Source of the DNA: Nereocystis luetkeana
Taxonomy: Eukaryota; Sar; Phaeophyceae; Laminariales; Laminariaceae
Reading direction: 5' to 3'
DNA: 64,000 bases
Assembly: GCA_031213475.1 (NCBI GenBank)
Contig: JARUPZ010000018.1
Location: 62,001 to 126,000, forward strand
Position numbers and translations under genes: made by a program. Below are positions 14,858 through 61,784 of this stretch, one piece after another. Within the stretch, counting starts at the first letter, position 1. Each line of letters starts with the position of its first letter. Below the pieces are notes generated by a model. That model was not told the origin of the DNA. It saw only the letters and a program-made list of their open reading frames with translations, and ran no database searches.

Positions 14858-15135
14858 TGTTAAGATCAGCAGGCGGGACACTTTGTATCCCTGGACAGGT
14901 CTGCCCATTAAGTCGGTACTCGTTGGTATTCACGTGTGTTGTTTGCTTAGAGAAAGAAGAAGAGCAGCTTTATTCCTTTCGTGCGCGGCGGAGACTGAGA
15001 CCAAGCTCGTGCCTCTCTGGAAAACCCCTGGTTTTGCACCTAAGATACGCCTTCCAAGTACTACAAATAGGATCCCAGTTCCAGAACCCAGGTAATTACC
15101 GAAATTTCAACCTCATTCAAGGCAGTATAATAACA
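14858..15135 (-). repeat. 3' LTR of gypsy element 1 (278 bp)
   Basis: Starts TGTTAAGATCAGCAGG and ends GGCAGTATAATAACA, with TGTTA/TAACA inverted ends. It aligns with both LTRs of element 2. Sequence from 15136 to about 15680 is the untranslated 3' region of the element. Confidence 0.9.
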
Positions 15136-16912: not shown

Positions 16913-18383
16913 TTAGACGCGAGGGAGCTGTTTATCCCAGTTGTTTTGGAGCTCGTTGACGACCATTGCTAGCATCTGGGCCATCATGAGGGTTACACGT
17001 TCCACCCCACCGTTGCCGTTTGGGTGGTAGGAGCTGGTGACAATTTTTCGAACCCAGAGAAGCTGGTGAACGGCGGGCGAGAGCTTGGAGCAGAAGTGGA
17101 GGCCGTTGTCCGAGAGGATGCTGCGCAGGCACGCCCAGAGGGGAATACACCGGTTGATGAGAATGTTAGCAGTGCCCTCAGCGGTGAACTCGGCCGCTGC
17201 GACGGCGTACATGTCGGCTCGGCGGCAGAAGCGATCAGTGTAGAGCAAGATGCAAGTATTTCCTCAAGGCGTCACCGGGAGAAGGCGGAAATAGCCAATG
17301 CTGGCGGCGATGCCGGGCCGTTCCGGCAAGAGCAACGTGATGGTGGACCACCGGACCGCTTGCCGCGACGTTTTCCGTGCTTGGCACTTCAAGCACTGGC
17401 GTAACCACCTCCGGATGCAGATGCTCATACCGATCCACCAGTAGAAACGTCCAAGCATACGTAGGGTGCGCGTGGTTCCTAGGTGACAGGAAGACGGGGA
17501 AGGGCAAGCCTGACCCAGGGGTGCATTAGTTGCTGCACGTAAATACGAATAGGCTCGTCGTTCAATATACAGGCCGTACAACCCACCGGGCGTTGCGTGG
17601 CTGCCGCAAGGGGGGGGGCGGCTGTCGAACGAGTAGAATGATGCCCGCGTCGGTGGTGTGTAAGCGGCCTTTGCTAGCCAGCTCCTGAACCTCGGAAAAG
17701 GGAGGGCGCCGGTGGGAAGAAAAACACGACAAAACGTCGGCTGGCAAAAGGCCAAGGGCTATGTAGCGCATGGCAGCGTTGCACGGGGGCTCGGCCTGTT
17801 GTTCCCGAGTACAGTCGGCGTGCAAATAGCGCGCTGTGGAATCACCGAACTGAAATTCGGCAGCTGCGCCGAGGGCATCCAAGTCGGTCGTGGTGACGGG
17901 CTGTGAGTCAGTAAACGTCGGAAGCCGTAAGAGAAGAGTTCCCACGGGCTCGGCGCGGTTGGGGTCGGACGGGATGGGTACCGTCGGGATCGACGAGGCG
18001 GCAGGAGCCGGGGCCAAAACGACGGGTGCGGGTGGTCGCGGCCGTGGGGCTCGCGGCGGAGTGATAGCACGCTGGGCGGATGGTCTAGGGGCCCCGCCAG
18101 GCCCGAAGCCATACCTAATATCAGGTGGCGCGGTGCCAGCGGCGGCGGCTGTTCGTCGGCGCGTCCGAGTGGAGATGCGGCCTGAAGGCGGCAAGATATT
18201 CAGAGGCGCCGGGTTGTCAGGCGGCGATGGGGCAGACGCGACCGGATCAGTGATCACAGCGGAATCTTCTCCCTGTGAAGTGCTCGTCGGGGGAGGATCG
18301 CGCTGGGCGACAATCGTCGCTGCAGCGGGGGCTCCTGCAGAACCCTGACTTGAAGGGAAAGACGCGGCCGGAGCAGTGCTCAC
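16913..18383 (-). pseudogene. Element 1: integrase, zinc-binding and catalytic core
   Basis: The 17264-17755 ORF contains HLGTTRTLRMLGRFYWWIG then CLKCQARK, the zinc-binding HHCC end. The 16913-17248 ORF contains ILSDNGLHF and HPNGNGGVERV, the second Asp and the Glu of the D,D35E core, with DRFCRRADM just upstream. The 17562-18383 ORF is a Pro/Ala-rich lead-in. Frames change between the pieces, so it is inactive as it stands. This whole catalytic section is missing from element 2. Confidence 0.8.
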
Positions 18384-20384: not shown

Positions 20385-21055
20385 CTAGGGGGAATCTATA
20401 ATTGCCGAGACCGGAGCCACCTCAAATAGTCCTGACGGAGGGCTGGGGGCTCGGTTGTCCTGATGCAAAACGTCCAGTGGAACGCTCAGCAGTGGGGCGT
20501 GGGCGACGCCGAGGATATCTCCAGGCTCGAGGGCCGCCACTCCAACGAGGGGAAGAGCCTGTCGCCCGGAGGCGACGAAGTGCTCCTCAACCGAGGGCAG
20601 GTCGGGCTGAGGTATCATGTCGACCAAGTAGTGCCCAGTGAGTGCCGGGGAGCCATCGCTTCGAACCAAGTCAACAGCGAGCAGTTAAGGATCGTCAGGC
20701 AGGGGGACGCCTGCAACGCCCTCGTAGAGTCAACGGAATCCTCCACCCGAGGCGGCCGGGTCGACGGCGTACACGGACATGCCTGTCGGGGCGTTGTGCA
20801 CTAACACCAGCTCACCAAAAACGCGTTGGTCTGACGGGCGAGGTGACAGAGAGCGGTAGGAGCGGCTACTGAAATGCATCCAGGTGTCATGTCCTAGCAG
20901 TATTGCAGCACTGAGGGGGGAACCACGCAGGCCCAAACTGCGAGGGAGCACGTAGGATCATTTTCTCGAAACAATTGGACGCTCAGGCGCACTCTCGTCG
21001 ATGTCTTTAGAGGGGTTGATTCGCCAACCCCCCCCCAGGAACGAGGGGCGCATTT
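20385..21055 (-). pseudogene. Element 1: end of protease and protease-RT linker
   Basis: Minus-strand frames read AAILLGHDTWMHF, the flap-distal LLGRD-type motif of a retropepsin, then VLVHNAPTGMSVYAVDP and HYLVDMIPQPDLPSVEEHF. It parallels 53260-54009 of element 2. The linker matches no domain I recognise. Confidence 0.65.
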
Positions 21056-22185
21056 CTACTCGCACGCGATGGATGCCGCATCAACCAAAAGCATGCGGCC
21101 CACCAAAACATCTCGTCGAATAAAAGTCCGTGGGGAACCAGTGTCAAGAAGCGCCACCCAACCAAAAGGTGCAAGAACGCCAGCTCCGCTGTGGATCGCG
21201 ATTTTGGTTGTAAAAGAGGCGTCATGGAGGGTAATGGTGCCCTCGACGAGGCAGGGGCCGTGTTCTGGCAGCGCGAGGAAGGGGGCGACACCAGGTGCGA
21301 CAGCCAAAACCTCGGGGCTGTGATCAGCCGGCGCGTCAGAAAAATAGGTCGAAAACTCCAAGGGAGGACCTAGGCAAGCGCGGGCCACGGCCAAAGGGCC
21401 AGGCGGCGCTGGGGAAATCTCATGTATTCTGTCAGTCGTGGTTCGAGTGCAAAATTGATGAGAAAAGGCGGGGGGTGCCAACCCGGCCTCACTTGAGCGG
21501 AGGGTGCCAACCCGGCCTCACTTGAGCGGAGGGTGTCGCGAATGGCGGAAAGAGCTTTCCCGAGAAAAATTTTGCCACGCCACCGAGAGGGGTCTTGAGC
21601 CTCGGGGTCATCTGCCCGGAGGCCGATGCCCCACACGGAGTTAAAAGGGCTGGCTTCAGCCAAACGTTTGGTGCCAGTGCTCAATAGGTGCTGCTTCATG
21701 ACCGGGTTCTGCGTGAATTTGGAAAAGGAACCAGCAAGGACGGCGTCTTCCCGAACGCGGTCCCAAGTAGCGCAGTCGAAGATATGCACGCCTCGACCGA
21801 GGCGTTTCTGTTCGCGAGGGTCTGGCGAGGCCATAATCCGCTCCGCTGTGTCGTGGTCCAGAAAAAGGCGAGCCTTTTCAGCCATCATATACTGCTCCGC
21901 GCAGGAATATGTCACCTCGTCAATAACAAAAACCGAGGGGGACCACTGCGAAAAATAGGAGGTGGGCTGCCAGAAAAGTACTGCCCGCTCCGTTGAATAC
22001 TCGAGAGTAGGGTCAAAGACCGAAGGTTTCGAGTCGTCGGTGGCCGCCGTTGCGGTGTGTGTTTGGGGGAGTGTGCTTCTCTGAGAACACTGAGCCCCTG
22101 GTGCACGAGGCGAGTCCGGTTCCACGTATACTGGCTCAGTGTCACCATTGCCCGTGGGCAAAAAATCGCCAGAAGGTTCTCTCAC
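21056..22185 (-). pseudogene. Element 1: NADAR domain and start of aspartic protease
   Basis: The ORF from 22185 contains a NADAR domain at 21523-21990: FSQWSPSVFVIDEVTYS, CAEQYMMAEKA, RLGRGVHIFDCATWDRVRED, FTQNPVMKQHLLSTG and SVWGIGL. The late motif reads GKIFLG where element 2 has GKNLLG. About nine of roughly 156 residues differ between the elements, with no stop or indel inside the domain. Just after it, a 28-bp direct tandem duplication near 21476-21533 shifts the frame. The protease then continues as 21481-21056 with VALLDTGSPRTFIRRDVL and ends at a TAG stop that element 2 shares. Confidence 0.88.
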
Positions 22186-22962
22186 TGCGCCCGATGATCT
22201 CTGTCCTGGACCAAAGGGGTAGGGGGCTGCGATTCTTCCGAATTCAACGGGTTTGCTGTTCGGTTGATCTGACCGGGGGCCGTGGAGTCACCACTGGCTC
22301 GACGAGCAGTGCCAGCTTTCTCCTGTTCCACTGGAGCCGAAGGAGTGCTGCGCACGTGGAGTGGCGTGCGCGAAGACGAAAGAGGGCCTGCAGACCCTGA
22401 AAATGACTTCGAGAACGGTGCTCGGGTGGGGGGTAACAAAGGGTCCACCGGAAAGGGCTTCCACCCTGTAGACCTGGTGGGGAAGGGGGACGAGATAGCT
22501 AATCTTGTCGATTCTTCCTCGATAGGAAAAAGGGTGGAGCGACCACCGAGGAAACGCCGAGTCAAGCTTCAACCGAGATCTCGGGGTTTCGGTGTTTGCC
22601 TTCCCGCACCTCAAACCGACCGCCACCGCATGGCCGGGGGGTGAACGAAGGGGACACCCTCGTTGACAAAAACGACGCGAAGGCGCGACACTCGTGGTAC
22701 CGCGCTGTGCGTGGTTCGGGAGAGCGGCGGTTATCGCGCCTGCTCTCGTTCCCAGATTGAGGGGAGCGGCGTTCGAGGCGCGGGCTCCCGACGCCGGGGA
22801 AGACGCCCGGGGGCTCCCCGGTAAAACCAGTAGAGGTGAGTCGCTGCGTCGGTCCGAAGCACGGAGCAACGCGCGGGGCGGGAGCGGAGCAGGTCGGCAC
22901 TGAGTGCTGAGTGAGCTTGGGACGCGAGAAGCTTGTGAAATCAATGTGATTTCTCCCGGCAA
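22182..22962 (-). pseudogene. Element 1: disordered N-terminal part of Pol
   Basis: Overlapping minus-strand frames are rich in Pro, Ser and Arg and correspond to residues 1-240 of the 55887-54073 ORF in element 2 (HAVAVGLRCGKANTETPRSR is shared). Frameshifts and small deletions separate the pieces. No fold is recognised. Confidence 0.6.
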
Positions 22963-27584: not shown

Positions 27585-27605
27585 TGTCAAGGCAGTAACA
27601 CAACA
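27585..27605 (-). repeat. 21-bp remnant of the 5' LTR of gypsy element 1
   Basis: Only TGT from one LTR edge and CAAGGCAGTAACACAACA from the other remain. The TAGT target duplication directly follows. About 250 bp were lost internally. Confidence 0.75.
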
Positions 27606-27652
27606 TAGTTTGCCCCCAAAACGGGACTGCGGTCCTAAAAGGGTTCATAAAC

Positions 27653-40169: not shown

Positions 40170-40380
40170 GCAGAGTATTCTCGGAAGAATGAGAGAATGT
40201 GAGTTTTGTACGTACGTAAGAAGTTTAGCCAATCAGATGAATGCGATGTTTCACGGTAGCATGAATCGTAGCCCTTGGTACATACACCTTGTCTGGTACG
40301 TAGCCGCAGCCTACACGCAACGGCGCAGTGAAGCAGAGGCAACGCTACAGGTTCAAGGTGTGATACAGACTAGTTTGACT
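40170..40380 (+). repeat. Left 211-bp direct repeat of the DIRS-like element
   Basis: Runs from GCAGAGTATTCTCGG to GACTAGTTTGACT. The Gag-like ORF starts 5 bp after it, so it presumably holds promoter and leader. Confidence 0.9.
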
Positions 40381-40385
40381 TCGGG

Positions 40386-41906: not shown

Positions 41907-41957
41907 AGACACGGGCCCTTCCTGTCGGTTGGGCCAACACCTGGGGGGGCGGCGGCG

Positions 41958-45427: not shown

Positions 45428-45715
45428 AACTATGAAGAAGTGTGTTATTACATGCGTTCCCTATGATATTGCAAGTCAGGGGGAAAGGGGCCGTGAGAGT
45501 ACATCCGTAAATAGGGTCGACTCCTATTTGGGTCGATGGAAGCTGGCGTCGAGAGTTCTATGCCGCCAGTTGGGTTGGGAGTTGACTCGAGTATACGGAT
45601 GTTAGCGTGGGGTTGCTGTTGGGGCAGCCCCGGGGGATCACCCCTTCTCCAACCCCCCTTCTCCGGGCGGGGGGTTGCGCATTAATATAATACAACTTCG
45701 AAAGCAAAGTACAAA
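45428..45715. other. Untranslated 3' region of the DIRS-like element
   Basis: No ORF. A GC-rich hairpin-prone stretch (GGGGCAGCCCC and neighbours) lies at about 45610-45660. Confidence 0.5.
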
Positions 45716-45926
45716 GCAGAGTATTCTCGGAAGAATGAGAGAATGTGAGTTTTGTACGTACGTAAGAAGTTTAGCCAATCAGATGAATGCGATGTTTCAC
45801 GGTAGCATGAATCGTAGCCCTTGGTACATACACCTTGTCTGGTACGTAGCCGCAGCCTACACGCAACAGCGCAGTGAAGCAGAGGCAACGCTACAGGTTC
45901 AAGGTGTGATACAGACTAGTTTGACT
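45716..45926 (+). repeat. Right 211-bp direct repeat of the DIRS-like element
   Basis: Identical to 40170-40380 by eye except CAACAGCGC here for CAACGGCGC. Confidence 0.9.
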
Positions 45927-48395: not shown

Positions 48396-48659
48396 TGTTA
48401 AGATCATGGACAGCGGGACACTTTGTATCCCTGAGCAGGTCTGCCTATTAAGCCGGTACTCATTGGTACTCACGTTGATGTTCGCTTAGAGATAGAAGAG
48501 CCACTTCATTCCTTCGTGCGCGACAGAGACTGGGACCACGCTCGTGCCTCTCTGGTTTTCCACCTAAGATACGCCTTCCAAGTACTACAAATACGTTCCC
48601 AGTGCCAGAACCCAGGTAATTACCGGGCTTTCAACCTCATACAAAGCAGTATCATAACA
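48396..48659 (-). repeat. 3' LTR of gypsy element 2 (264 bp)
   Basis: TGTTAAGATCATGGACAGCG to GCAGTATCATAACA. It lacks about 11 bp (around CGAAAACCCCTGG) present in the other LTR. Sequence from 48660 to about 49280 is the untranslated 3' part of the element. Confidence 0.93.
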
Positions 48660-49288
48660 CTAGCCCACTCTGATGAGCCGTATATGCAGAATTATGGGAA
48701 ATTCATGGGAACCCCGATTCCACAACTAGAACATGAGTCGAAGATGCGGCTCCTCAACACCCACTCCCACACCTCTGAACGGCAAGGCAACGAAGCCGGC
48801 AGAGTACGTAAAAAATAATGTAAGGAAGCGTAGCCTCAAGGGGCAGGAAGAAATCGTCAACGAAAAACCATCGCCATGTCCCCCGCGACGGGGGGGGGCG
48901 AGGAAGATGCGGGAAAAGTGAAAAGGGAACATAAAAAAAAGACGAGAAGAAAAATATCACGGAAGATGTCAAGATACATCGAAAACCCAGCCTACTACTC
49001 GGGAAACGTGTCCTGTGCCACAGTGAGTGGCACGATTACCCAAACCAGCCCCGACACTGAGCGGGGGGGTAGGCAGGACAGAATACGCGAAAACCATCCC
49101 TAACCAAGCCCAAGAAAAACACTCAAACAAACAATCCAGGAACACACCTGCCAGAAGAAAAAAAATCGACCCGAAAAGTCGGAAAACGTCAACAACGAGA
49201 AAGACCACCGCCCGAATCCAGGAAAACGTCAAGAAAAAAAAATTCGAGCGCAGCCAAGAAGCGAAAATCAGCTATCCACGGCGGCGCC

Positions 49289-50752
49289 TCAAGATTCGTC
49301 TACGTTACGCTGGACCCCCCGTGCAAATGCGCTAGCCAAGTGAATTTGGAGATACCAAGAGCCACGTACAGCTCTCGTCGAAGTCGTGTAGCGCGCCGGA
49401 GAAAGAGGAAGCTTGATCGGTCCCGGGTCGTCCAAAAATCGAAGTAAATATACTCCATCCGTGGGCGTAGTCGCGCTGATTTTCCCGAGCCACCACAGTC
49501 CGTCGTCGCCCTTGTACCAAAAATGGGCCCCTTTGGGAAGCACGGTGTTGCAGTATCGGCGGAGCCAGTCGGCGTGCGAGACGCAGCCATAGCCGGATGC
49601 CAGAAACCGCCGGCCGTTATTCCGAGAGAGCTCCCGTTGTGCCGCGCCGATTCTCATTCGGCGGTACAGGCGGTTGGTTTGACGATGCTGGTTCGGGGTG
49701 CCGGCCCAGTAGCGCAAAATTGCGTGGCGAGAAAGCTGAAGGTCCATTTCCCGTTCCCAGGATGGACGGGAGAGTCCAGTCCAGTACGTCTCGTACATCA
49801 CTGCGATGACGCCACCTCGACCTCGAACCGATTGGTGTCCGGTAATCTTTTCCACTTCGAGTCGGTGAAGAGGTGTCGAGACGTCGTCCTTGGTGACGTG
49901 GTACGGGGGAGATTTCTTGGAGAAGTTGTTGAGCACGTACTGCGTCAACCCCGCTGGCAAATACTTCGGCATGTCGCCACGGTCGTGGGGGTTGGCACAG
50001 GGCTTGCAGCGTTGAATTGAAACGCGCCGACGAGCATCCGCGCCGGGCATATCGGAGGGGAGATCCAAATACAGGAGCTTTGCCCCAAGAGGAGATCCGT
50101 CCGGGGTATCCGCTGCGGAGCAGGGGCGAACTGCGAGAGCTTTGTAGGGGCCTGTCCAGTTGAGTGAGAGTTTGGCCTTGAGGACCTTGGCGTCCGTGTC
50201 GGGTTTTGCCCCCTGGCGGATGGTGGCCGCCGTATTGTACATCCACGCCCAGCCGCCAACGTCAAATCTGGGGACCGGACGCAGAACATCGGCGAGGGCG
50301 GAGTTGCGGCGGTTCACGCGGGCAGCAGTGAGGGCGTGGTGTTCGCGAACAATATCGCACGCGCGCTGCTGGCGGTCCGCCGCCAAGTCGCAACAGGCGA
50401 GGTGGTCGCGGGCCAAGCTTTGGTGGCCGGCGACTCCAGCACGCTCGAAAATCGTGAGGGGAGGCGTGGCAGCCGAGGGCGAACTGAAATTCGGCAGCTG
50501 CGCCGAGGGCGTCCAAGTCATTCGTGGGGACGGACGGTGCGTCAGTTGGCAGCGGAAGCCGTAAAAGAGGGGTTCCCACGGGTTCGGCGCGGTCGCGTTC
50601 GGACGGGATGGGTACCGTCGGGGCCTACGAAGCGGCAGGAGCCGGGGCCAACACGACTGGTGCGGTCGGTCGCGGCCGTGGGGCTCGCGGCGGGGTGATA
50701 GCGCGCCGGGCTGATGGTCTAGGGGCCCCGCCGGGCCCGAAGCCATTATCAA
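49289..50752 (-). CDS. Element 2: truncated integrase tail with GPY/F, chromodomain and Tudor-like domain
   Basis: 487 codons. Residues about 135-205 are the integrase end (VREHHALTAARVNRRNSALA to LSLNWTGPYKAL, a GPY/F motif). Residues 298-350 look like a chromodomain: LEVEKITGHQSVRGRGGVIA, then ETYWTGLSRPSWEREMDL and HAILRYW. Residues 405-455 (GAHFWYKGDDGLWWLGKI; YLLRFLDDPGPIKLPL) resemble a Tudor/SH3 barrel. The catalytic core is missing: near residue 90 the lead-in LDALGAAAEFQF is joined to sequence lying downstream of the core in element 1. Chromodomains on gypsy integrases direct insertion to marked chromatin; the Tudor assignment is from pattern only. Confidence 0.78.
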   Translation of the reverse strand: MIMASGPAGPLDHQPGALSPRREPHGRDRPHQSCWPRLLPLRRPRRYPSRPNATAPNPWEPLFYGFRCQLTHRPSPRMTWTPSAQLPNFSSPSAATPPLTIFERAGVAGHQSLARDHLACCDLAADRQQRACDIVREHHALTAARVNRRNSALADVLRPVPRFDVGGWAWMYNTAATIRQGAKPDTDAKVLKAKLSLNWTGPYKALAVRPCSAADTPDGSPLGAKLLYLDLPSDMPGADARRRVSIQRCKPCANPHDRGDMPKYLPAGLTQYVLNNFSKKSPPYHVTKDDVSTPLHRLEVEKITGHQSVRGRGGVIAVMYETYWTGLSRPSWEREMDLQLSRHAILRYWAGTPNQHRQTNRLYRRMRIGAAQRELSRNNGRRFLASGYGCVSHADWLRRYCNTVLPKGAHFWYKGDDGLWWLGKISATTPTDGVYLLRFLDDPGPIKLPLSPARYTTSTRAVRGSWYLQIHLASAFARGVQRNVDES

Positions 50753-50869
50753 CAGCAGGCGGCGCGGAGCCAGCGGTGGCGGTTGTTCGTCGGCGCGTCC
50801 GAGTGGAGATGCGGCCGGAAGACGGCAAAACGGTTGGAGGCGCCGGGGTGCCAGGCGGCGATGGGGTAG

Positions 50870-51500
50870 ACGCTGCCGGATCAGTGATCACAGTGGAATC
50901 TTCTCCCTGTGAAATGCTCGTCGGGGGAGGAGCGCGCTGGGCGACAATCGTCGCTGCAGCGGGGCTTCGGCATTGCCCTGGCCGGGAGGGGCAGACGCGG
51001 CCGGATCAGTGATCACAGCGGAATCTTCTCCCTGTAAAAATACCCGTCGGGGGAGGAGCGTGCTGGGCGACAATCGTCGCTGCAGCGGAGGCTTCGGCAT
51101 TGCCCTGGCCGGGAGGGGCAGACGCGGCCGGAACAGTGCTCACGGCGGAATCTTCTCTCTGTAAAGTGCTCGTCGGGGGAGGAGCGTGCTGGGCGACAAT
51201 CGTCGCTACAGCGGGGGGGCTTCTGCATTGACCTGGCCTGAAGGGTCAGACGCGGCCGGAGCAGTGCTCACGGCGGAATCTTGTCCCAGTAAAAAGCTCG
51301 TCGGGGGAGGAGCGTGCTGGGCGACAATCGTCGCTACAGCGGGGGCTTCTGCAGAGCCCTGGCCTGAAGGGGCAGACGCGGCCGGAGCAGGGCTCACGGC
51401 GGAATCTTGTCCCTGTAAAATGCTCGTCGGGGGAGGAGCGCGCTGGGCGACAATCATCGCTGCAGCGGGGGCTTCTGCAGAGCCCTGGTCACCCCCGGGG
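50870..51500 (-). repeat. 126-bp (42-residue) tandem repeats in Pol, five units
   Basis: GCGACAATCGTCGCT recurs at 50941, 51067, 51193, 51321 and 51447, spaced 126, 126, 128 and 126 bp. The 128-bp unit has two extra G in a G-run and shifts the frame. Element 1 has only two units (18307 and 18433). The encoded unit is Pro/Ala/Ser-rich and probably a flexible linker. Confidence 0.9.
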
Positions 51501-51868
51501 GGTACGACAAAAAGCGAAGCGAAAGTGGCGTTGGCGGCGGGTGACCAAACCCTCAAGCCAGGACGGCGATCGACGGTGGAGACGGAAGCAGAGACACGAG
51601 CGACGAATCTCCCCGAAAGAGCAGAGAGGTCGTCAATCCTCATACGTAGCCCGTGTGTGCGAAAATCGCGAAAGTCCGAAGAGGTGAAAGGCAGCCCACC
51701 CAAGACGGCACGTTCGATGCGGGGCACCAGCCCACCCAAACCGACACCGGGGGTCGGGGAAGAGCGAGTGCGAAGCCCGCAGGCCTGGACGAGGAAGACA
51801 TTCCCGTCCTCTACGGGTGTGAGGCTGCTAGACCCACTGCGGTCGTGTTCCGTGGCCGGCTCTGGCAC
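51206..51868 (-). pseudogene. Element 2: end of RNase H region and repeat linker
   Basis: Starts MPEPATEHDRSGSSSLTPVE, just after the RNase H LSRLPEPA boundary, and runs into the 42-residue repeats. FLVQACGLRTRSSPTPGVGL corresponds to element 1 and to the older fragment at 9990-10575. Frame continuity into the integrase tail is lost at the 128-bp repeat. Confidence 0.65.
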
Positions 51869-51949
51869 GTGAGAGAGAAAATCAGCTTTGCCGTTGGCGC
51901 TGCCCTTGCGGTACTCGAGGGTGTAGTCGAACGCTGTGAGAAACTCGAG

Positions 51950-53082
51950 TCACCGCTGAACTCGCGCGTTGTGATCCCCTACTTTGCCGATGCTCTCAAG
52001 TGCCTTGTGGTCCGAAAAGATGCGAAACGTCGTCCCTCCCCCATAGGTAGCCGCGGAGTCGCTTGATAGCCCAGACAATGCTGCCCGCTTCGAGGTCCAA
52101 CGGGGTCCTGTGTCTCTCGGAATCGAGAGTAGCGCGGCTGATATAAGCAATGGGCCGTACCGAGCCGTCCAATTGTTCTTGTTCAAGCACGGCACCAAAA
52201 CCGTCGATGAGGCGTCACAGTACACGCGAAAGGGGCGGGAGCCGTCGGCTACAGCGTCCCAGTCCGGGAAGACCAAAATTGGCGGGGCAGCGAGCTCGGC
52301 GAGGATCTGGCGAACGATAACTTCCATGGCCGGCGTAAAGACGTACTTAACCCCCTTCCGGAGGAGGGCAGTGAGAGGCCGGACCCTTTTAGACAGGTCG
52401 GGCAGGAATTTGCGATAATATCCCACGCCGCCCATCAATGCTCGGACCTGCTTGAGGTTCTTGGGCATGGGAATTTTCAACAAAGCCGAACTTTTTCCGC
52501 ATTGGGGCGTATACTCGCGGGCGAAATGGAGTGGCCCAGAAAATTAGCGTCCGTGACGCCGAGGCGAGCCTTCGAGGGGGAGAGCTTGAGGTTGTGTTCG
52601 CGCAGGCGTTCGAAAAGGGCTCATATCGCCTTGACGTGGGCCGTCGGATCAGAGTCGAACACGATCACATCATCGAGGTAGGCCGCTACCTGTGCCAGGC
52701 CTTTGATGACTTCGTTAATAACTTTGACGAACCAACCGGGCGAAGCACTGCTGCCTTGGGGCATGACGAGCCACTCGTAGAGTCCCTTAGGAGTGCAAAA
52801 TGCCGTGAGGGGGACGGTGTCTTTGTGCGCCGTAATTTGGTGGAACGAGGAGACCAAATCGAAGAGAGAAAACACCCGTCCCTTCCCCAGGGAGTCGAGA
52901 ACTTGATCCACGCGAGGAATAGGCAGCTGGCTGAGTTTGCTGATCTGGTTGAGTTTCTTGTAGTTCACTGTGATCCGAACGTCTCCCGACTTCTTCGGGA
53001 TGACCACCAGCGGGCTCGAGTACTGAGAGGTCGAGTGCTGGATCAGACCCGCCGCTAGATACTGATCCAAGGTGGCCTCCAC
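51950..53082 (-). pseudogene. Element 2: reverse transcriptase and RNase H
   Basis: 53082-52621 carries SSPLVVIPKKSGDVRITVNY, FSLFDLVSSFHQI, LYEWLVMPQGSSASPGWF and AAYLDDVIVF (catalytic Asp pair near 52670). 52483-51950 carries ALMGGVGYYRKFLPDLSKR, PPILVFPDWDAVADGSRPFR and FRIFSDHKALESIG. The intervening stretch (about 52490-52620) and the RNase H contain frameshifts; 52190-51996 holds SVRPIAYISRATLDSERHRT in another frame. The polymerase domain is cleaner than in element 1. Confidence 0.88.
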
Positions 53083-53259
53083 TTCCTAGGCCAGGATGAG
53101 GTTGATGCGGTGCGGCCTGGACGTGACTGGAGGGCTTCCTTCCGGGACCGAAATCACGAAAGGCATCAACGAGCAGGAACCAAAATCAGATTTGGACTTC
53201 GAGAATACGTCCGGAAAATCGCAGAGAACATCTCCCAGTTGTTCGATGGTCTCAGGGGT

Positions 53260-54009
53260 TCAGTCCGTGCCGTTAAGGCCAAAAGCCACCTCCCGCAGAT
53301 GCAGCGGCAAACGTGCCCAGACGCCCAGGAACGAAACGCGCTGTTCTAGGTTCAAACGCTCAAGCAGTGCAGGCGAAGGAGAGCTCGGAGCTGCTAGGGG
53401 GGAAGTTGAAACTGGCGAGACCAGAGCCAACTCAAATAGTCCTGACGGAGGGCTGGGGGCTCGGTTGTCCTGATGCAAAACGTCCAGTGGAACGCTCAGC
53501 AGTGGGGCGTGGGCGACGCCGAGGATATCTCCAGGCTCGAGGGCCGCCACTCCAACGAGGGGAAGAGCCTGTCGCCCGGAGGCGACGAAGTGCTCCTCAA
53601 CCGAGGGCAGGTCGGGCTGAGGTATCATGTCGACCAAGTAGTGCCCAGTGAGTGCCGGGGAGCCATCGCTTCGAACCAAATTAACCACAAGGAGTTGAGG
53701 ATCGTCAGACAGGGTGACGCCTGCCGCGCCCTCGTAACGGAGATGGAAGCCTCCACCCGAAGCGGCGGGGTCGATGGCGCACACGGACATGCCTGTCGGG
53801 GTGTGGTGAAGTAACTCCAACTCGCCAAAAACGCGATTGTCTGACGGCCGGGGTGGGAGAGAGCGGTAGGAGCGGCTATTAAAACGCATCCAGCTGTCAC
53901 GTCCCAGCAGTATTGCATGCTGCATCACTGAGGGGGGAACCACGCAGGCCCAAACTGCGAGGGAGCACGTAGGATCATTTTCTCGAAACAATTGGACGCT
54001 CAGGCGCAC
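53260..54009 (-). CDS. Element 2: second half of protease and protease-RT linker
   Basis: The frame is the same as the upstream ORF and is separated from it only by TAG at 54073-54075. Residues 1-50 include MQHAILLGRDSWMRF, the hydrophobic-hydrophobic-G-R-D motif near the C-terminus of gypsy retropepsins. The next 200 residues (ELLHHTPTGMSVCAIDP; GHYLVDMIPQPDLPSVEEHF; VGVAALEPGDILGVAHAPLL) form a linker seen in many gypsy Pols and lead towards RT after a frame change. Confidence 0.75.
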   Translation of the reverse strand: MRLSVQLFRENDPTCSLAVWACVVPPSVMQHAILLGRDSWMRFNSRSYRSLPPRPSDNRVFGELELLHHTPTGMSVCAIDPAASGGGFHLRYEGAAGVTLSDDPQLLVVNLVRSDGSPALTGHYLVDMIPQPDLPSVEEHFVASGRQALPLVGVAALEPGDILGVAHAPLLSVPLDVLHQDNRAPSPPSGLFELALVSPVSTSPLAAPSSPSPALLERLNLEQRVSFLGVWARLPLHLREVAFGLNGTD

Positions 54010-54072
54010 TCTCGTCGATGTCTTTAGAGGGGTTGATTCGCCAACCCCCCCCCAGGAACGAGGGGCGCATTT

Positions 54073-55887
54073 CTACTCGCACGCGATGGATGCCGCACCA
54101 ACCGTGAGCATGCGATCCAAAACATCTTGCCGAATGAAGGTCTGTGGGGAGCCAGTGTCAAGAAGCGCCACCCAACCAAAAGGTGCAAGAACGCCAGCTC
54201 CGCTGTGGATCGCGATCTTGGTTGTAAAAGAGGCGTCATGGAGGGTAATGGTGCCCTCGACGAGGCAGGGGCCGTGTTCTGGCAGCGCGAGGGAGGGGGG
54301 GACACCAGGTGCGACAGCCAAAACCTCGGGGCTGTGATCAGCCGGCGCGTCAGAAAAATAGGTCGAAAACTCCAAGGGAGGACCTAGGCAAGCGCGGGCC
54401 ACGGCCAAAGGGCCAGGCGGCGCTGGGGAAATCTCATGTATTCTGTCAGTCGTGGTTCGAGTGCAAAATTGATGAGAAAAGGCGGGGGGTGCCAACCCGG
54501 CCTCACTTGAGCGGAGGGTGTCGCGAATGGCGGAAAGAGCTGTCCCGAGCAAATTTTTGCCACGCCACCGAGAGGGGTCTTGAGCCTCGGGGTCATCTGC
54601 CCGGAGGCCGATGCCCCACACGGAGTCAAAAGGGCTGGCTTCAGCCAAACGTTTGGTGCCAGTGCTCAATAGGTGCTGCTTCATGACCGGGTTCTGCGTG
54701 AATTTGGCAAAGGAACCAGCAAGGACGGCGTCTTCCCGAACGCGGTCCCAAGTAGTGCAGTCGAAGTTATGCACGCCTCGACCGAGGCGTTTCTGTCCGC
54801 GAGGGTCTGGCGAGGCCATAATCCGCTCCGCTGTGTCGTGGTCCAGAAAAAGGCGAGCCTTCTCAGCCATCATATACTGCTCCGCGCAGGAATATGTCAC
54901 CTCGTCAATAACAAAAACCGAGGGGGACCACTGCGAAAAATAGGAGGGGGGCTGCCAGAAAAGTACTGCCCGCTCCGTTGAATACTCGAGAGTAGGGTCA
55001 AAGACCGAAGGTTTCGAGTCGTCGGTGGCCGCCGTTGCGGTGTGTGTTTGGGGGAGTGTGCTTCTCTGAGAACACTGAGCCCCTGGTGCACGAGGCGAGT
55101 CCGGTTCCACGTATACTGGCTCAGTGTCACCATTGCCCGTGGGCAAAAAATCGCCAGAAGGTTCTCTCACTGCGCCCGATGATCTCTGTCCTGGACCAAA
55201 GGGGGCAGGGGGCTTTGAGCCCGTTCTGCTTGACGAGAGCTGCGATTCTTCCGAATTTAACGGGTATGCAGTCCGGTTGATCTGATCGGAGGCTGTGGAG
55301 TCACCACTGGCTCGACGGGCAGTACCAGGTGTTTCCTGTTCCACTGGAGCCGAAGGAGCGCGGCGCACGTGGAGTGCCGTGCGCGAAGACGAAAGAGGGC
55401 CTGCAGACCCTGTAGACGACTTCAAGAACGGTGCTCCGGTGGGGGGCAACAAAGGGTCCACCGGAGAGGACTTCCGTCCTGTAGACCTGGTGGGGAAGGG
55501 GGACGAGGTAGCTAATCTTGTCGACTCTTCCTTAATAGGAAAAAGGATTGAATGGCCACCGTTATTGCGAGGAAACGCCGAGTCGGGCTTCAACCGAGAT
55601 CTCGGGGTTTCGGTGTTTGCATTCCCGCACCTCAAACCGACCGCCACCGCATGGCCGGGAGGTGAAAGAAGGGGACACTCTCGCTGGAAAGAACGACGCG
55701 ACGGCGCGACACGCGTGGTGCCGTGCGGTGCGTGGTTCGGGAGAGGGGCGTTTATCTCGCCTGCTCTCGTGCCCAGGGTGAGGGGAGCGGCGTTCGAGGC
55801 GCGGGCTCCCGACGTCGGCGAAGACGCCCGGGGACTCCCCGGTAGAACCGGAGCTGAGTCGCTGCGTCGGCCCGAAGTACGGAGCAA
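54073..55887 (-). CDS. Element 2: NADAR (YbiA-like) domain fused to aspartic protease
   Basis: 604 codons. Residues 1-290 are Pro/Ser/Arg-rich and probably disordered. Residues 305-460 (54508-54975) match the NADAR family in order: LFWQPPSYFSQWSPSVFVID, TYSCAEQYMMAEKARLF, RIMASPDPRGQKRLGRGV, TTWDRVREDAVLAGSFAKFT, QNPVMKQHLLSTGTKRLAEA, VWGIGL and GKNLLGTALSAIRDTLR. NADAR proteins are N-glycosidases on ADP-ribose-linked or riboflavin-pathway substrates. Residues 571-590 (GWVALLDTGSPQTFIRQDVL) carry the D-T-G active site of the retropepsin. The ORF ends at TAG before the protease is complete. The domain sits where some retroviruses carry dUTPase, so packaging with Pol is plausible. Confidence 0.92.
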   Translation of the reverse strand: MLRTSGRRSDSAPVLPGSPRASSPTSGARASNAAPLTLGTRAGEINAPLPNHAPHGTTRVAPSRRSFQRECPLLSPPGHAVAVGLRCGNANTETPRSRLKPDSAFPRNNGGHSILFPIKEESTRLATSSPFPTRSTGRKSSPVDPLLPPTGAPFLKSSTGSAGPLSSSRTALHVRRAPSAPVEQETPGTARRASGDSTASDQINRTAYPLNSEESQLSSSRTGSKPPAPFGPGQRSSGAVREPSGDFLPTGNGDTEPVYVEPDSPRAPGAQCSQRSTLPQTHTATAATDDSKPSVFDPTLEYSTERAVLFWQPPSYFSQWSPSVFVIDEVTYSCAEQYMMAEKARLFLDHDTAERIMASPDPRGQKRLGRGVHNFDCTTWDRVREDAVLAGSFAKFTQNPVMKQHLLSTGTKRLAEASPFDSVWGIGLRADDPEAQDPSRWRGKNLLGTALSAIRDTLRSSEAGLAPPAFSHQFCTRTTTDRIHEISPAPPGPLAVARACLGPPLEFSTYFSDAPADHSPEVLAVAPGVPPSLALPEHGPCLVEGTITLHDASFTTKIAIHSGAGVLAPFGWVALLDTGSPQTFIRQDVLDRMLTVGAASIACE

Positions 55888-56027
55888 CGCACGGAGGGGG
55901 GGAGCGGCGCAGGGCGACGCAGAGTGCTGAGCGAGCCTGGGACGCGTGTATCTAGTGAAATCAATGTATGTTCTCCCGGCAATGCTGGCGGCGGGCGGGC
56001 AGGAGGAGCCGAACCGCCGTCGACCTG

Positions 56028-58964
56028 TCAGTTGCCGTCGCGGAAGGTGCCTGGATGGCGTCCGTTGGGGTTACCGTCCGAACTATGCGAGGCACCGTAG
56101 CGAACCCCCGACGCGGGAGCGGCGGTGGAAGAGGCAGAGTTGGTCGAACCACCACCGTAGTAGCCGGAGTTAGACTGTTGGTGCCCTCGTTCCGCGTGTG
56201 TGTTGTAGCCGTCACCTTGTCTGTGGCCCTGGCCGTGATGCTGTCCACGCGAATGGTCTGACCGTCGCCTGTTTTTTTTGTGGTTGTTCTTGTTCGGCCG
56301 TGAGGTATTTTCGCGGCGATGTCGGGTCATGCGTTCTTGCCAACGACGGAATGCCGCTCCGTCGTCGCCGAGAGTTACTAGGTCGGGGTTAAGAATACCG
56401 CTGAGGTTTTGAAAGGGGTGCCTACACTGTCTGAGGGAGTGTGAGTCTTTGTGGCAGTTCAAACAGCGGCCTCGGGTTTCGCTGAGGGCGGCCGCGCGGG
56501 CGGACGATGAAAGTAGACCGCTCCAGAGAGGGGGGTCCTCGGTGTGGATAGACATGCAAACAGCGTGAACTTCAGCATAGTGGTGTTCTTCTAGGGGCCA
56601 GCAGTTGGAAGCGGTGTCAAGCCACGGGTCGAGGCAGTCAGGGATGGATTTGTGGACGTTCATCACAAGCGGATTATTGCGCGACCCCGTCTGCCAAACA
56701 GGCGACTGAGGAAGCGTCCGACCCTGGCCGCGACCATTACCGGCGGGCCGGGGCCCCGACGGGGCGGATGACCGCCCACTCGTCGAAGAAGCAGGCATAG
56801 AAAAATATTTTTCGCCGTTGATGGCAGGTGTCTCATTATTTGCGAGAGTCTCAAAAGCCAGCCACATCGCGTCCAAAGTACCAAACGGCCTCGATACCGT
56901 AGCCAAAACTCCCGGGTACAACGTGGGCATCAAGCTGGGGAACTGCTCGTTCACTGCCATCCGAACAACCTCCAAAACAACCTCCACCCCCGGAGCCAAA
57001 ACACGCTCAGTCCCCGTCGCTGCCGACATCACTCCACGAAAAGCACGGCTAAAATCGCAAAAGGGGGTCCCGTTAGGTACGCCAAAATTATGCAACTTGG
57101 TGTAGCTGGCCCCCGTGTCGGTGCGATCGAAGTCGTTGCTCAGCAGCCTCAGGAGGAGCGTGAACGCTTCCGGTCCCGTCGATCCAGCTGCGAGGGCGCG
57201 CGACACCTGCCCAAAAAAATAATCCATCAAGGTAGTGAGGGGGGCGGTCGTGAGCCTGTCAGGTGCGATGGCGCGCGCGAAAGATTTCTTGAGGGGGTAC
57301 TCCCAACCGGGGATCCAATCGGTAGAACTGAGGCCTTCGTGGCTGCCATTGTTGCGCATCATGAGAATATCAGACGTGGAGGCCTTAACCGAACGAGTTA
57401 GTTGCTGCGCGGCGTCAGAAGGGTTGATCGAGGAGGGAAAAGGTAGAACGGAAATGCGTGAAATATCCTTCAGTCCCAGGTGTTTGTACGCCCGTTGGAC
57501 GTCTGCGGTGTGCTTTTTCGCGGCGGCGGCGGCGGCGGAGTCGATCGCCGCCGTGCGAGCGTGGGCAAGGTTAGACGACACGGGCATGGCGCGGTCCTCG
57601 TACATGGTCAGGTGACCAAGAAGCGCGGCGGGGGAAGCAACTTCCGCCAACGAGGGAACCACTTGCCTCTTGGAGCCGGTGGTGACTTCGGGAACGGGGC
57701 TTTCGCCGCTGCCGTCCGTGGAGGACCTCGAAGAGTTGGCCTGAGACGCGTCTCCCCACGGGCGGTAGCTCCAATTTCGCCCGTCGCTCGAGCTGTCCTT
57801 CCCCTGGCCCCGGTTCCGCCGCCGACCAGCCCCGTTTCGCCGAAACGTGCTCCTGCCATGGTCTGAACCCTGTCCGCGGCGGGCCTTGCCGTCTTGGCCT
57901 GTCGAGGCTCCCCCCGTGCTTGGACGCCGGCGGTCCCGGGCGTCATCGCGGCGGTAGGGGTGGTCACGGGCCCCAGAGCCGTCGGGGACTCCCCGGTGTT
58001 GGTGCCCCGGGGGTCGGTGAGTCCTGTCGTCCGAGAGGGGGTCGGAGGGGGCGTGGGCCTGACCCAAGCCCTGTCCGACGTCCGGGAACCGTTGTCCCTG
58101 GGCGCCGAGATCGGCCTGACGCTTGCAGTGGCGCCCATACTCCGTCGGGGTCGGCCAAAAAACGGTGGTGGAGCACACGTCGTGGGTCTGCCGCAGGCTC
58201 ATCACGAGAGCCATGGTGTGCTCCCGGCGTTGCTGGACCTTCCAACTGTCGCCCGCCATGACGAGCCAAGCGTCGTGCACGGAGAGGTCGTCTTCGGGCA
58301 TGTCCAGTCGGAGTTCGCGAGCGGCAGAGACGACCCTCGAAGCCGCCTCAAGGGAAAAGCGCGATTTTGGGCCGGCGGCCATGCAGGCGACACTCCCCTG
58401 GAAGAAATCCAGATCCCCGGTACGCTTGATCCGGGCGTCGCCCGCGATGGCGCCAGGAGGGAGCGTGGCGGAGGAGCCAAAACCGGGGGCTGGAGTGGCG
58501 GTTGTCGCGGCCTCAGCGAGGGGAAGGCGCTCCCCTGAGTTTCTTGTCTCGGCAACACGACGGGGCTTCGTGCTGCTGTCCGCCCGCGCCGCCCGCAGAG
58601 TTTCCCTGGCGCGGGATATAGTCTCCTGGGCGCAGGAGACAGGGCGCGCGGCGTCCTCCGATGCCACGGCGGCCTCCTTCGAAGCGTTGTTTGCGGCCTC
58701 TGAAGCAGTGGTAGCGTCGGCGGCGGTGCGAGCGGCCGCTGATGCCACATTCTCGGCCACCGTGAGCGCCTGCGCCCGGCGGCGGGCGGTTTCCGTCGAG
58801 GTCGCTCCGAGGGTCTCGGCGGCAGTCAAGGCCCGTTCGGCCGTCGCGACATCGGGGTGATCGTCGGCTGCAAGAGGCCATGAACCCCCGCCGAGGCCCG
58901 GCACGTCTGACCAGCGCCGGATGAGGGCCGCCTGGGCCTTGACCGAGAGGGAGGTCCAGGCCAC
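56028..58964 (-). CDS. Element 2: main Gag ORF, capsid-like region and CCHC knuckle
   Basis: 978 codons. An Ala-rich probable coiled coil fills the first 150 residues (ERALTAAETLGATSTETARR). Middle region: Arg/Gly-rich stretch, then a capsid-like segment (SSTDWIPGWEYPLKKSFARA; TLMDYFFGQVSRALAAG; NGTPFCDFSRAFRGVMSAA; FGTLDAMWLAFETLANNE). Residues 834-847 are CLNCHKDSHSLRQC, an exact C-x2-C-x4-H-x4-C knuckle. The tail is basic and His/Gly-rich. The true start is upstream: a G-run at about 58971-58985 shifts the frame relative to 58826-59275. Pol is in a different frame, so ribosomal frameshifting or separate translation would be needed. Confidence 0.85.
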   Translation of the reverse strand: MAWTSLSVKAQAALIRRWSDVPGLGGGSWPLAADDHPDVATAERALTAAETLGATSTETARRRAQALTVAENVASAAARTAADATTASEAANNASKEAAVASEDAARPVSCAQETISRARETLRAARADSSTKPRRVAETRNSGERLPLAEAATTATPAPGFGSSATLPPGAIAGDARIKRTGDLDFFQGSVACMAAGPKSRFSLEAASRVVSAARELRLDMPEDDLSVHDAWLVMAGDSWKVQQRREHTMALVMSLRQTHDVCSTTVFWPTPTEYGRHCKRQADLGAQGQRFPDVGQGLGQAHAPSDPLSDDRTHRPPGHQHRGVPDGSGARDHPYRRDDARDRRRPSTGGASTGQDGKARRGQGSDHGRSTFRRNGAGRRRNRGQGKDSSSDGRNWSYRPWGDASQANSSRSSTDGSGESPVPEVTTGSKRQVVPSLAEVASPAALLGHLTMYEDRAMPVSSNLAHARTAAIDSAAAAAAKKHTADVQRAYKHLGLKDISRISVLPFPSSINPSDAAQQLTRSVKASTSDILMMRNNGSHEGLSSTDWIPGWEYPLKKSFARAIAPDRLTTAPLTTLMDYFFGQVSRALAAGSTGPEAFTLLLRLLSNDFDRTDTGASYTKLHNFGVPNGTPFCDFSRAFRGVMSAATGTERVLAPGVEVVLEVVRMAVNEQFPSLMPTLYPGVLATVSRPFGTLDAMWLAFETLANNETPAINGEKYFSMPASSTSGRSSAPSGPRPAGNGRGQGRTLPQSPVWQTGSRNNPLVMNVHKSIPDCLDPWLDTASNCWPLEEHHYAEVHAVCMSIHTEDPPLWSGLLSSSARAAALSETRGRCLNCHKDSHSLRQCRHPFQNLSGILNPDLVTLGDDGAAFRRWQERMTRHRRENTSRPNKNNHKKNRRRSDHSRGQHHGQGHRQGDGYNTHAERGHQQSNSGYYGGGSTNSASSTAAPASGVRYGASHSSDGNPNGRHPGTFRDGN

Positions 58965-61397
58965 TGGTAGTTGGGGGGGGGCGGGGCTTGACCCCCGTTC
59001 AGCGCTGTCTCCCTAGCGGCGCCTTGCATCGTCGTCCGCTCCTCGTCCTTGGAACTGCGGGCCTCGTAGTCCACAGCGTCGTCCAAATCCGTCCGGCCCG
59101 GACGCTGGGGTGCCCGCTCTCCCGACGAGGGAGAGGAGCCGTAAGTCCTCAGGCCGCTGGCAGACCTGGCGGGGCTGGGGGACTCCTCCTTCGTCTTTGG
59201 TGTCCGTGGCATGCTGAGTCGGGGACGGGCGAAAAACATCGGGGCAGGGGAGGGCACCGGGGCAGGGGGGGACACCGGGGCCGGGGGGGCGGCATTCGGC
59301 GGAACTCAGGGTCGTGTAACGAAGGAGCTGCGGTGGTAGTATCCTCGGCTCGTGCTTTAGCAACTTGTCTAGCGGCGATGAGGGCATGGTGAGCCATTCG
59401 GTGAGCACTACGAGCGCTTGGGGAGCCAGCATCGATCCGAGAAGGTGGCGCGATAGATATGCGGTCGTCACGGGGTGTACGTGTACTAACATCCAGTGCG
59501 TTTGGTGCAGGTACGTCGCCGGTACTGGGGGGGCTATAATAAGCATCGCCCCTTCCAACAGCAGTATTATATATTTTTTCTCAGCACATTATCCAGCAGA
59601 ATCGTCGCGGTTCGCTACAGCAGCGGGTTTGGTAGGCGCTATACTGAATTCCACGATGGCGTCTTGTGGGCGGGGCGCAGGAAAAAAATCTCGAGCGGCC
59701 GTCTCGCTCCCTCTAGCAGCAGTCTCAAAACTTGCAGCAGTACTGTAGGTTCCAGCAGAATCGGCGTGGGTGGCTACGGCAGAGGAAAAGGCAGGTGCAC
59801 TACTAAAATGCAGTGTGCCGTTTTGAGGGCGGGTTGTGGGAAAAATGTCACGAGCGGCCATATCGCTCCCTCTAACAGCAGCATCAAAGCTCGCAGCCGT
59901 ACTGGAATTTTCAGCAGAAGCGGCGCGGGTGGGCACAGCAGCGGGCAACGCAGGCGCAATACCGAAAACCAGTGTGCCGTCTTGTGGGCGAGGCGTGGGA
60001 AAAAAATCACGAGCGACCATATCGCTCCCTCTAACAGCAGCATCAAAACTGCAGCCGTGCTGGATTGTTCAGCAGAAACGGCGCGGGCGGGCACAGCAGC
60101 GGGCAACGCAGGCGCAATACCGAGATCCAGAGTGCCGTCATGTGAGCGAGGCATGGAAAAAATTCACGAGCGCCCGTATCGCTCCTTCTAACAGCAGCAC
60201 AACTCGAACCAGTACTGGAGTTGCCAGGATCTCTGTTTGTTGCTACAGCAGCGTGGGAAGTAGGCTCAATACTGAAATCCTGTGTGCCGTCTTGTGGGCG
60301 AGGCGCGGGAAAAATCTCACGAGCGGCCGCATCTCCCCCTCTAACAGCAGTATTGAAACGCGCAGCAGTACGGAATTTCCACGCGGAATCGTCGTTTGCA
60401 GCTACAGCAGTGAGGGAAGTGGGCTCAATATTGAAATCCAGTGTGTCATCGTGAGGTTCAGGCACGGAAAAAATCGCATCGTGCGCTCGCGTTGCAAACA
60501 TTCACGAGAGGCAGCATCGCTCGCGGCTATCCTACGCGTACGAGCGAGGTCGGGCAGCAGTGGAATCATGCGAGGCGGAACAACAGTCTCAATCACTCTC
60601 TCATCTGGCCCAGGAGCAGGTAGGTCCGACGGCGAAAGGCGCAGCTGGGTGGCGTGGAAAACGCTACGTCCAGGCGCGCCCGGCGCTCTCCGGCCCAGTG
60701 CAGAAGCAGCTGGCTCAACGCTCTCAGCGGAGCCAGGTGGCTTGGACGGCAGTAAAACGCTACGTCCAGGTTTGTCCGGCGCTCTCCGGCCCATAGCAGA
60801 AGCAGCTGGCTCCACGCTCTCAGCGGAGCCAGGTGGCTTGGACGGCAGTAAAAAGCTACGTCGAGGTTTGTCCGGCGCTCTCCGGCCCAGAGCAGAAGCA
60901 GCTGGCTCCACGCTCTCAGCGGAGCCAGGTGGCTTGGACGGCAGTAGGCACGAGTGGGGAGTCAAAACTGCAAAACCCAAGGCTTGGCTGGTTACGCACG
61001 CCACGCGCTCCGAAGAGTCTGACGCTCTCCGACCCAGAGCGGGAGAAGCTGGCTCAACGCTCTCAGCGGAGCCAGGTGGCTTGGACGACAGAGCTCGTCC
61101 CGACGAGCGAGAAGGCTCGGAAAAGGTCTTGAACGAGGTCCGTCTGCCGGAAGCTGCTCGAGATTCGCCAAGGGGCCCCAGCCCTGGGTCTTCGGACGGG
61201 CGAGTTGTACAAGGCGCGCGATCCACGTCGTCATCACGGGGCACCTGCCGAGACACACGCTCCGCTTGGTGGTCTGTTGTACAAGGCGCTCGGTCTCCAT
61301 CGACGAGCCTTGGGCGGTGGGGCACTGGGCGGCTCTGGGCCTCAGTGTCTCGTCCACCACGAGGGGAAGCAGACCCTCCCTCCTCGTGAGTCTCCAT
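58826..61397 (-). pseudogene. Element 2: N-terminal Gag with two repeat arrays
   Basis: Starts at METHEEGGSASPRGG (61397); the frame also extends upstream. At 60640-61090 a 96-bp (32-residue) unit LLPSKPPGSAESVEPAASAL occurs about three times plus diverged copies. At 59558-60500 a unit of about 159 bp (53 residues; FPAPRPQDGTLDF core) occurs about six times, versus two or three in element 1. Frameshifts between units break the ORF. The region then reads SPSPARSASGLRTYGSSPSS into the main Gag. Confidence 0.75.
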
Positions 61398-61490
61398 CGT
61401 GCAGTGGAGCAAACTGACTCTAAAAAAAAAGCTAAACGAAAGCAAAAACAGAGTGAAAAAACAATTGTACCGGCAAAAAGGCAAAAAGCC

Positions 61491-61507
61491 CAAAGCCGAA
61501 GACGCCA
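61491..61507 (-). promoter_or_regulatory. Candidate primer-binding site, element 2
   Basis: TGGCGTCTTCGGCTTTG on the minus strand, two bases inside the 5' LTR, conserved in element 1. The cognate tRNA was not identified. Confidence 0.6.
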
Positions 61508-61509
61508 CT

Positions 61510-61784
61510 TGTTAAGATCATGGACAGCGGGACACTTTGTATCCCTGGGCAGGTCTGCCTATGAAGCCGGTACTCATTGGTACTCACGTTGATGTTCGCT
61601 TAGAGATAGAAGAGCCACTTCATTCCTTCGTGCACGACAGAGACTGGGACCACGCTCGTGCCTCTCTCGAAAACCCCTGGTTTTCCACCTAAGATACGCC
61701 TTCCAAGTACTACAAATACGTTCCCAGTGCTAGAACCTAGGTAATTACCGGGCTTTCAACCTCATACAAAGCAGTATCATAACA
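61510..61784 (-). repeat. 5' LTR of gypsy element 2 (275 bp)
   Basis: Same ends as the 3' LTR (TGTTAAGATCATGG; AGTATCATAACA). Differences by eye are a few substitutions and one block of about 11 bp. Confidence 0.93.

Follow-up and report, generated by a model that had tools for sequence, protein, structure and literature searches.

The window (the whole 64,000-nt stretch of Nereocystis luetkeana DNA that was analysed) contains two minus-strand copies of one kind of Ty3/gypsy element, in which a NADAR domain sits inside Pol ahead of the protease, and across the wider family to which these copies belong this domain is very probably both catalytically competent and under selection. A NADAR-bearing Gypsy lineage, with Gypsy-12_Ec32 as an example, has been described in Ectocarpus sp. 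7 (Dinatale et al. 2025, PMC12477816), so the combination is already known in kind, although the preliminary description of this DNA was not aware of such a retrotransposon. Among the open-access papers listed, the others being judged from titles and the starts of abstracts, it is the only one that appears to describe such an element. What is new relative to the Ectocarpus work is that different lineages retain the active site and that NADAR appears as constrained as the protease. Also new are the finding that its nearest kin seem to be brown-algal rather than bacterial, and the recognition that the window's own two copies are unusable as evidence of selection.

Two decayed elements in the window

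Element 2 spans 48396-61784 and is bounded by the two LTRs (264 and 275 nt) and the target-site duplication (CAGG, read by eye) that define a Ty3/gypsy insertion; its LTRs differ by 5 mismatches in 264 aligned sites (1.9%) together with one 11-nt gap (Table 1). Element 1 starts at 14858 and retains one LTR and a 21-nt remnant of the other, the TAGT after 27605 being the same four bases, as read by eye, that precede 14858. As the flanking duplications differ (CAGG and TAGT), the two elements represent separate insertions. A search for tRNA genes within the 64,000-nt window, relevant to the candidate primer binding site of element 2, found none.

Table 1. Features of the two NADAR-bearing elements, with the evidence for each
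Feature	Position	Strand	Evidence and remarks
3' LTR, element 1	14858..15135	(-)	TAGT outside; end set by eye at TAACA
5' LTR remnant (21 nt), element 1	27585..27605	(-)	followed by TAGT at 27606-27609; by eye
Integrase zinc-binding domain, element 1	17366..17491	(-)	Pfam Integrase_H2C2, E 2.3e-11
Low-divergence tract, element 1	20909..22219	(-)	counterpart of 53926..55204
NADAR domain, element 1	21523..21990	(-)	Pfam PF08719, E 1.7e-46; active-site D replaced by N, GKN motif altered
3' LTR, element 2	48396..48659	(-)	CAGG outside
Chromodomain-like segment near Pol C-terminus, element 2	49706..49858	(-)	Pfam Chromo, E 0.16; weak, below cut-off
RNase H, element 2	51953..52240	(-)	RT_RNaseH, E 1.7e-4; 22.1 bits, below the cut-off of 24.8
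Reverse transcriptase (part), element 2	52627..53001	(-)	Pfam RVT_1, E 8.3e-21
Low-divergence tract, element 2	53926..55204	(-)	25 of 1279 aligned sites differ from element 1
Aspartic protease region, element 2	54076..54279	(-)	LLDTGS at residue 575; by eye
Pol N-terminal ORF, element 2	54076..56070	(-)	stop to stop; N-terminal stretch, NADAR, protease
NADAR domain, element 2	54508..54975	(-)	Pfam PF08719, E 1.8e-49; residues 305-460 of Pol ORF
Gag ORF, element 2	56031..59012	(-)	stop to stop, from ORF list; zinc-knuckle-like stretch by eye
Candidate primer binding site, element 2	61495..61507	(-)	TGGCGTCTTCGGC; by eye
5' LTR, element 2	61510..61784	(-)	CAGG outside

The two loci represent, in decayed form, a Ty3/gypsy lineage with the Pol order NADAR, protease, reverse transcriptase (RT), RNase H and integrase, pieced together from the two copies, with integrase recognised only in element 1. 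Pfam matches to NADAR and RT in both elements (RT in element 1 at E 3.6e-17), the integrase zinc-binding domain in element 1 and the LTRs bear out the placement of NADAR within a gypsy Pol. The RNase H matches fall below the Pfam cut-off in both elements; they follow RT in each, and in element 1 Integrase_H2C2 comes next, whilst element 2 lacks the stretch of about 1 kb in which this domain lies (993 gap columns). Pfam did not match the catalytic integrase core, nor Chromo in the piece of element 1 that was scanned, and it matched nothing in the protease region of element 2, which is assigned by its motif. The zinc-knuckle-like stretch of Gag in element 2 likewise drew no support from a Pfam scan, and an XXXYYYZ slippery heptamer was absent from the 150 nt containing the Gag-Pol overlap of that element.

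The protease motif LLDTGS had been placed in the same ORF as NADAR in both copies. This is so in element 2, where NADAR (residues 305-460) and LLDTGS (575) share one 604-aa ORF, whereas the protease of element 1 lies in a separate ORF at 21059-21517. The frame of element 1 shifts just past NADAR, where there are 29 gap columns in the 200-nt bin and, by eye, a short duplication; in element 2 the break is an in-frame stop at 54073-54075, directly after the protease. Given the post-protease stop and the missing 1 kb in element 2, and the broken frame after NADAR in element 1, neither Pol is intact.

Several further features were observed in and around these elements. Beyond the weak chromodomain match, at 49292-49860, a WxxG...RFLDDPG-like stretch present in both elements resembles a Tudor domain by eye; Pfam matched nothing at E <= 1 in the piece from element 1. 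Tandem repeats of about 126 nt occur in the Pol region, in five copies in element 2 (50785-51471) and two in element 1 (18226-18473), and in element 2 the main Gag ORF is preceded by repeats of about 159 nt and about 96 nt (59575-60473 and 60658-61092). A 423-aa protein on an ENA contig (P0204) is 94% identical to the window Pol N-terminus and the first part of NADAR, so a third near copy exists. Elsewhere in the window, 40170-45926 is a separate, apparently young LTR-type element with 211-nt direct terminal repeats that are 99.5% identical; it has two plus-strand ORFs, 40386-41906 (506 aa) and 41958-44063 (701 aa), neither of which Pfam matched at E <= 0.05. A cluster of diverged repeats occupies 7411-8800.

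Fold and active site of the NADAR domain

The proposal that residues 305-460 are a NADAR domain is confirmed by the Pfam profile PF08719, which both copies match over positions 2-163 of 163 with 168.5 bits (element 2) and 158.9 bits (element 1) against a cut-off of 35.1. Each copy encodes 156 residues uninterrupted by a stop or indel, as first described. The sequence landmarks said to be common to both copies are shared in part: two of the four differ in element 1, which reads ATWDRVRED in place of TTW... and GKIFLG in place of GKNLLG.

A sequence search of the PDB at E <= 0.01 returned two entries, the Phytophthora nicotianae NADAR 8bau (E 5.1e-17) and E. coli YbiA 2b3w (E 2e-7). An AlphaFold2 model built from 49 sequences has a mean pLDDT of 97.2, and the comparison with YbiA that had been suggested as a check on the assignment bears it out: with this model Foldseek retrieved the same two structures as the sole matches at E <= 0.001 (2 of 35), namely 8bau with bound ADP-ribose (E 6.2e-13, TMq 0.82) and 2b3w (E 3.1e-8, TMq 0.75). 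The domain is thus predicted to adopt the fold of the ADP-ribose-bound Phytophthora protein.

Residue roles were taken from section 12 of PMC11543638 and transferred through alignment to the PDB sequences. By this alignment the hydrolysis residues, two glutamates and a lysine, are present in both window copies: the equivalents of E43 and K50 are E and K, and the E125 position is also E, the residue that marks the YbiA subfamily. The same section gives D at this position in BC4488 and H in phage types. On alignment, then, the window domain is a YbiA-subfamily NADAR with the residues needed for catalysis. The catalytic glutamates, the lysine and the fold are shared with 8bau and 2b3w; these two proteins differ from the window domain in having no retrotransposon link and in the D86 and Y84 contacts, the D86-equivalent ligand contact being C in the window. 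The R93-equivalent is R in the window, and the D130 position is occupied by N in element 1, which also has the altered GKN motif.

The YbiA-type glutamate also bears on the idea that the domain, like YbiA-type enzymes, cleans up riboflavin-pathway or damaged nucleotide intermediates and so provides a cleaner pool for RT, by analogy with dUTPase. According to PMC11543638 and PMC9503650, NADARs act as N-glycosidases on riboflavin intermediates, and the window domain has the glutamate in question. A cellular enzyme would presumably already do this job, however, and there is no evident reason for fusing it to Pol, so we consider this role quite unlikely.

Recent homogenisation of a tract shared by the two copies

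The intact state of the domain at both loci, amid broken frames, had been singled out as notable. An inference from it fails, because NADAR and the protease lie within a tract that has recently been homogenised between insertions about 33 kb apart. Divergence between the elements is 2.0% in the tract compared with 9.9% and 11.0% in the stretches either side, and a segment this similar arose in none of 500 site shuffles and in none of 500 block shuffles. This recent exchange probably took place through gene conversion, or else through template switching before insertion, and since the divergence of the tract is close to that of the element 2 LTRs, it may date from about the time when element 2 inserted. 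Another stretch, at 53431-53679, has 249 identical sites and is weaker against block shuffles.

The NADAR domains of the two copies differ at 10 positions, 9 of them nonsynonymous and 1 synonymous. Against a simple neutral expectation of 0.73 nonsynonymous this is no difference (one-sided P 0.20). As the tract was also recently homogenised, we reject the two window copies as evidence of selection. The lack of visible constraint since the exchange is what might be expected if the domain were a passenger, a captured host or bacterial piece without a role. Against this stand the kept active site and the conservation of NADAR, across lineages, to a degree similar to that of the protease, with flanks at about 20% identity (see below), and we regard a passenger as very improbable indeed.

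Conservation among related proteins

A protein search with residues 300-604 gave 176 proteins at E <= 1e-5, of which the best 120 were examined. Within these 120, Pfam NADAR is matched in 115 and the protease motif is found in 78, 74 of which also match NADAR; in all 74 of these listed relatives NADAR lies upstream of the protease, or 75 of 75 when the window ORF is counted. The many NADAR-protease proteins contradict a one-off host capture, the finding that would have undermined the original interpretation. The five proteins of the 120 that have no Pfam NADAR match start within or after the last quarter of the domain (P0240 is ambiguous) and so look truncated; the search was seeded on NADAR and is poorly suited to finding kin that lack it. 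In one 1348-aa relative, which stands for 126 sequences, NADAR, RT and RNase H are all encoded by the same ORF. By eye, a clam (Mercenaria) protein (P0164) apparently has two NADAR domains in tandem. When viral contigs were scanned with a 300-residue NADAR-protease query, 27 loci were found at 40-56% identity; the longest match ended at query residue 173, and the protease was thus seen in none of them.

Compared with the window, the 64 of 113 protease-bearing proteins that were long enough have a median identity of 54% in NADAR, 48% in the protease region and 20% in the linker; upstream of NADAR it is 19% (63 proteins). Since NADAR is conserved much as the protease is whilst the flanks stand at around 20%, selection seems to keep the domain, and at the protein level this is indicated for the wider family as a whole.

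The active site tells a similar story in the 74 NADAR-protease proteins. The equivalents of K50, E125, D130 and W133 are kept in 71, 70, 72 and 71 of the 74, and that of E43 in 52 of the 55 that have a letter there (19 have a gap). Other positions depart from the structurally characterised proteins: the D86-equivalent is D in 0 of 74, the Y84-equivalent is F in 72 of 74, and the R93-equivalent is R in 13 of 74. That several adenine-side contacts vary could suggest that the domain is a binding module for packaging or targeting in which catalysis is of no importance, its ligand being RNA, ADP-ribose or ADP-ribosylated chromatin proteins, and Gypsy lineages of Ectocarpus do carry chromatin-reader domains (PMC12477816). 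Retention of the catalytic E, K and E at the frequencies given above argues against this, and a purely binding role seems to us rather improbable.

The Ectocarpus and window elements are alike in having a YbiA-family NADAR towards the N-terminus of their Gypsy Pol and in its conservation within the lineage. The Ectocarpus elements are reported to have a C-terminal chromodomain, to which the weak Chromo match of element 2 may be compared; the window copies differ in being broken, and the likeness between the families is one of description rather than of sequence.

Ancestry of the domain

Dinatale et al. suggested that NADAR may have been acquired horizontally, because nearly all of its blastp matches beyond Ectocarpus came from bacteria. 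In a quick tree built from 175 rows, each covering at least 140 query residues, a branch with SH-aLRT 95 has on one side 53 of the 54 protease-bearing rows, both window copies, 30 unlabelled rows and all five eukaryotic stand-alone NADARs (from Scytosiphon, two from Ectocarpus, from Pylaiella, and one EukProt protein), with the named bacteria on the other; the sole protease-bearing row outside the group is the long-branched P0195. A more careful tree used 52 rows hand-picked from the quick-tree set, in which the 20 'element' rows comprise the two window copies, 11 rows with the protease motif and 7 chosen by their place in the quick tree or by eye. Here the 20 element rows and the five stand-alone proteins fall on one side of a branch supported at 97/94, and the same branch uniting element and brown-algal rows is found at 98/89 under another sampling of 49 rows. 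The NADAR of the stramenopile Chrysoparadoxa groups with bacterial and unlabelled rows.

Bacterial transfer as suggested in print is made less likely by the grouping with brown-algal stand-alone NADARs (97/94), and the trees favour a source for the element domain in the brown-algal NADAR stock over a recent bacterial capture. The five stand-alone proteins are probably host genes, because they have no protease motif and have N-termini of their own. By eye, the brown-algal P0008, P0010 and P0014, and the metagenome protein P0233, have a zinc-finger-like N-terminus; a zinc-finger pattern matched P0010, P0014 and P0233, and Pfam gave no match for the N-termini of P0008, P0010 and P0233.

We dropped a single origin of the fusion as a supported claim. 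The 20 element rows form one group in the best 52-row tree but lack support there (43/0), and in the 49-row tree, which includes the divergent P0195 (protease motif) and P0192 (protease by eye), they do not form one group, the brown-algal rows nesting among them (88/82). Forcing the element rows together in that tree is not rejected (AU p 0.282, or p 0.405 with the brown-algal rows included). Capture of a host gene by the element and derivation of the host genes from the element both fit these trees, and the two directions cannot be told apart.

Possible function

Removal of ADP-ribose from guanosine, in DNA as well as in RNA, is reported for NADARs in PMC11543638, PMC11833690 and PMC11125620, and in the last of these YbiA is described as active in vitro, yet it did not protect cells from DarT1. 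This published activity and the conserved catalytic residues are consistent with a packaged enzyme that removes ADP-ribose, as was first proposed. Lying near the start of Pol, NADAR would enter the virus-like particle together with RT and integrase, and would strip ADP-ribose from guanines of the element RNA or of new single-stranded cDNA. Host ADP-ribosylation, or stray modification, would then not block reverse transcription or integration. The domain itself would have come from the NADAR stock to which the brown-algal stand-alone proteins belong, and not recently from bacteria. We give this explanation as a whole, a guanine-ADP-ribosyl hydrolase carried by Pol that protects element RNA/cDNA, an even chance of being correct. 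That nucleic-acid ADP-ribose is the main target of the domain we hold tentatively, at slightly less than even. We know of no host ADP-ribosylation of element nucleic acid.

The domain might instead act on small NAD-derived molecules or on ADP-ribosylated host-defence proteins, rather than on the nucleic acid of the element. Part of PMC9503650 proposes both of these roles for viral NADARs, the RNA-virus versions being embedded in polyproteins with the polymerase, and one relative of the window domain, the metagenome protein P0241, has NADAR fused to Nudix and ADP-ribosylglycohydrolase domains. The assays in the relevant parts of the three papers on guanosine cited above, however, use guanosine-ADP-ribose in nucleic acids, and fusion to Pol puts NADAR alongside nucleic acid, so a small-molecule or protein substrate appears unlikely. 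We also considered bacterial gene neighbourhoods as a clue to the substrate. Among 10 proteins scanned from 6 of 79 loci (neighbours only for two loci) there were no ADP-ribose genes, the ten being four NADARs, two regulators, a DinB protein, a transporter, a CoA-ligase and an LRR protein, and this line was dropped as it says nothing on ADP-ribose.

Returning to a hydrolase acting on element nucleic acid, comparisons may be drawn with other replicating elements. The ORF1 of an oyster Tx1 element (PMC12477816) is likewise a retrotransposon protein with a NADAR, differing in that the element is a LINE and its NADAR divergent. Polyproteins of positive-strand RNA viruses, as described in part of PMC9503650, likewise place an ADP-ribose-processing domain (NADAR or a macrodomain) within a replicative polyprotein, in viruses that differ in having no reverse transcription. 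By analogy, these NADAR domains and macrodomains are the nearest functional parallel to the domain described here.

A more far-reaching possibility is counter-defence, in which brown algae would ADP-ribosylate foreign RNA or cDNA at its guanines inside virus-like particles, and these Gypsy elements would have taken a NADAR of the host lineage to undo this. We think it improbable at present; if it were true, eukaryotes would be using nucleic-acid ADP-ribosylation as a defence against transposons. More generally, if selection keeps an ADP-ribose-removing enzyme within the Pol of a retrotransposon, this would imply a part for ADP-ribosylation in the life cycle of such elements, and the enzyme would offer a direct way to ask whether eukaryotes label the nucleic acids of transposons by ADP-ribosylation.
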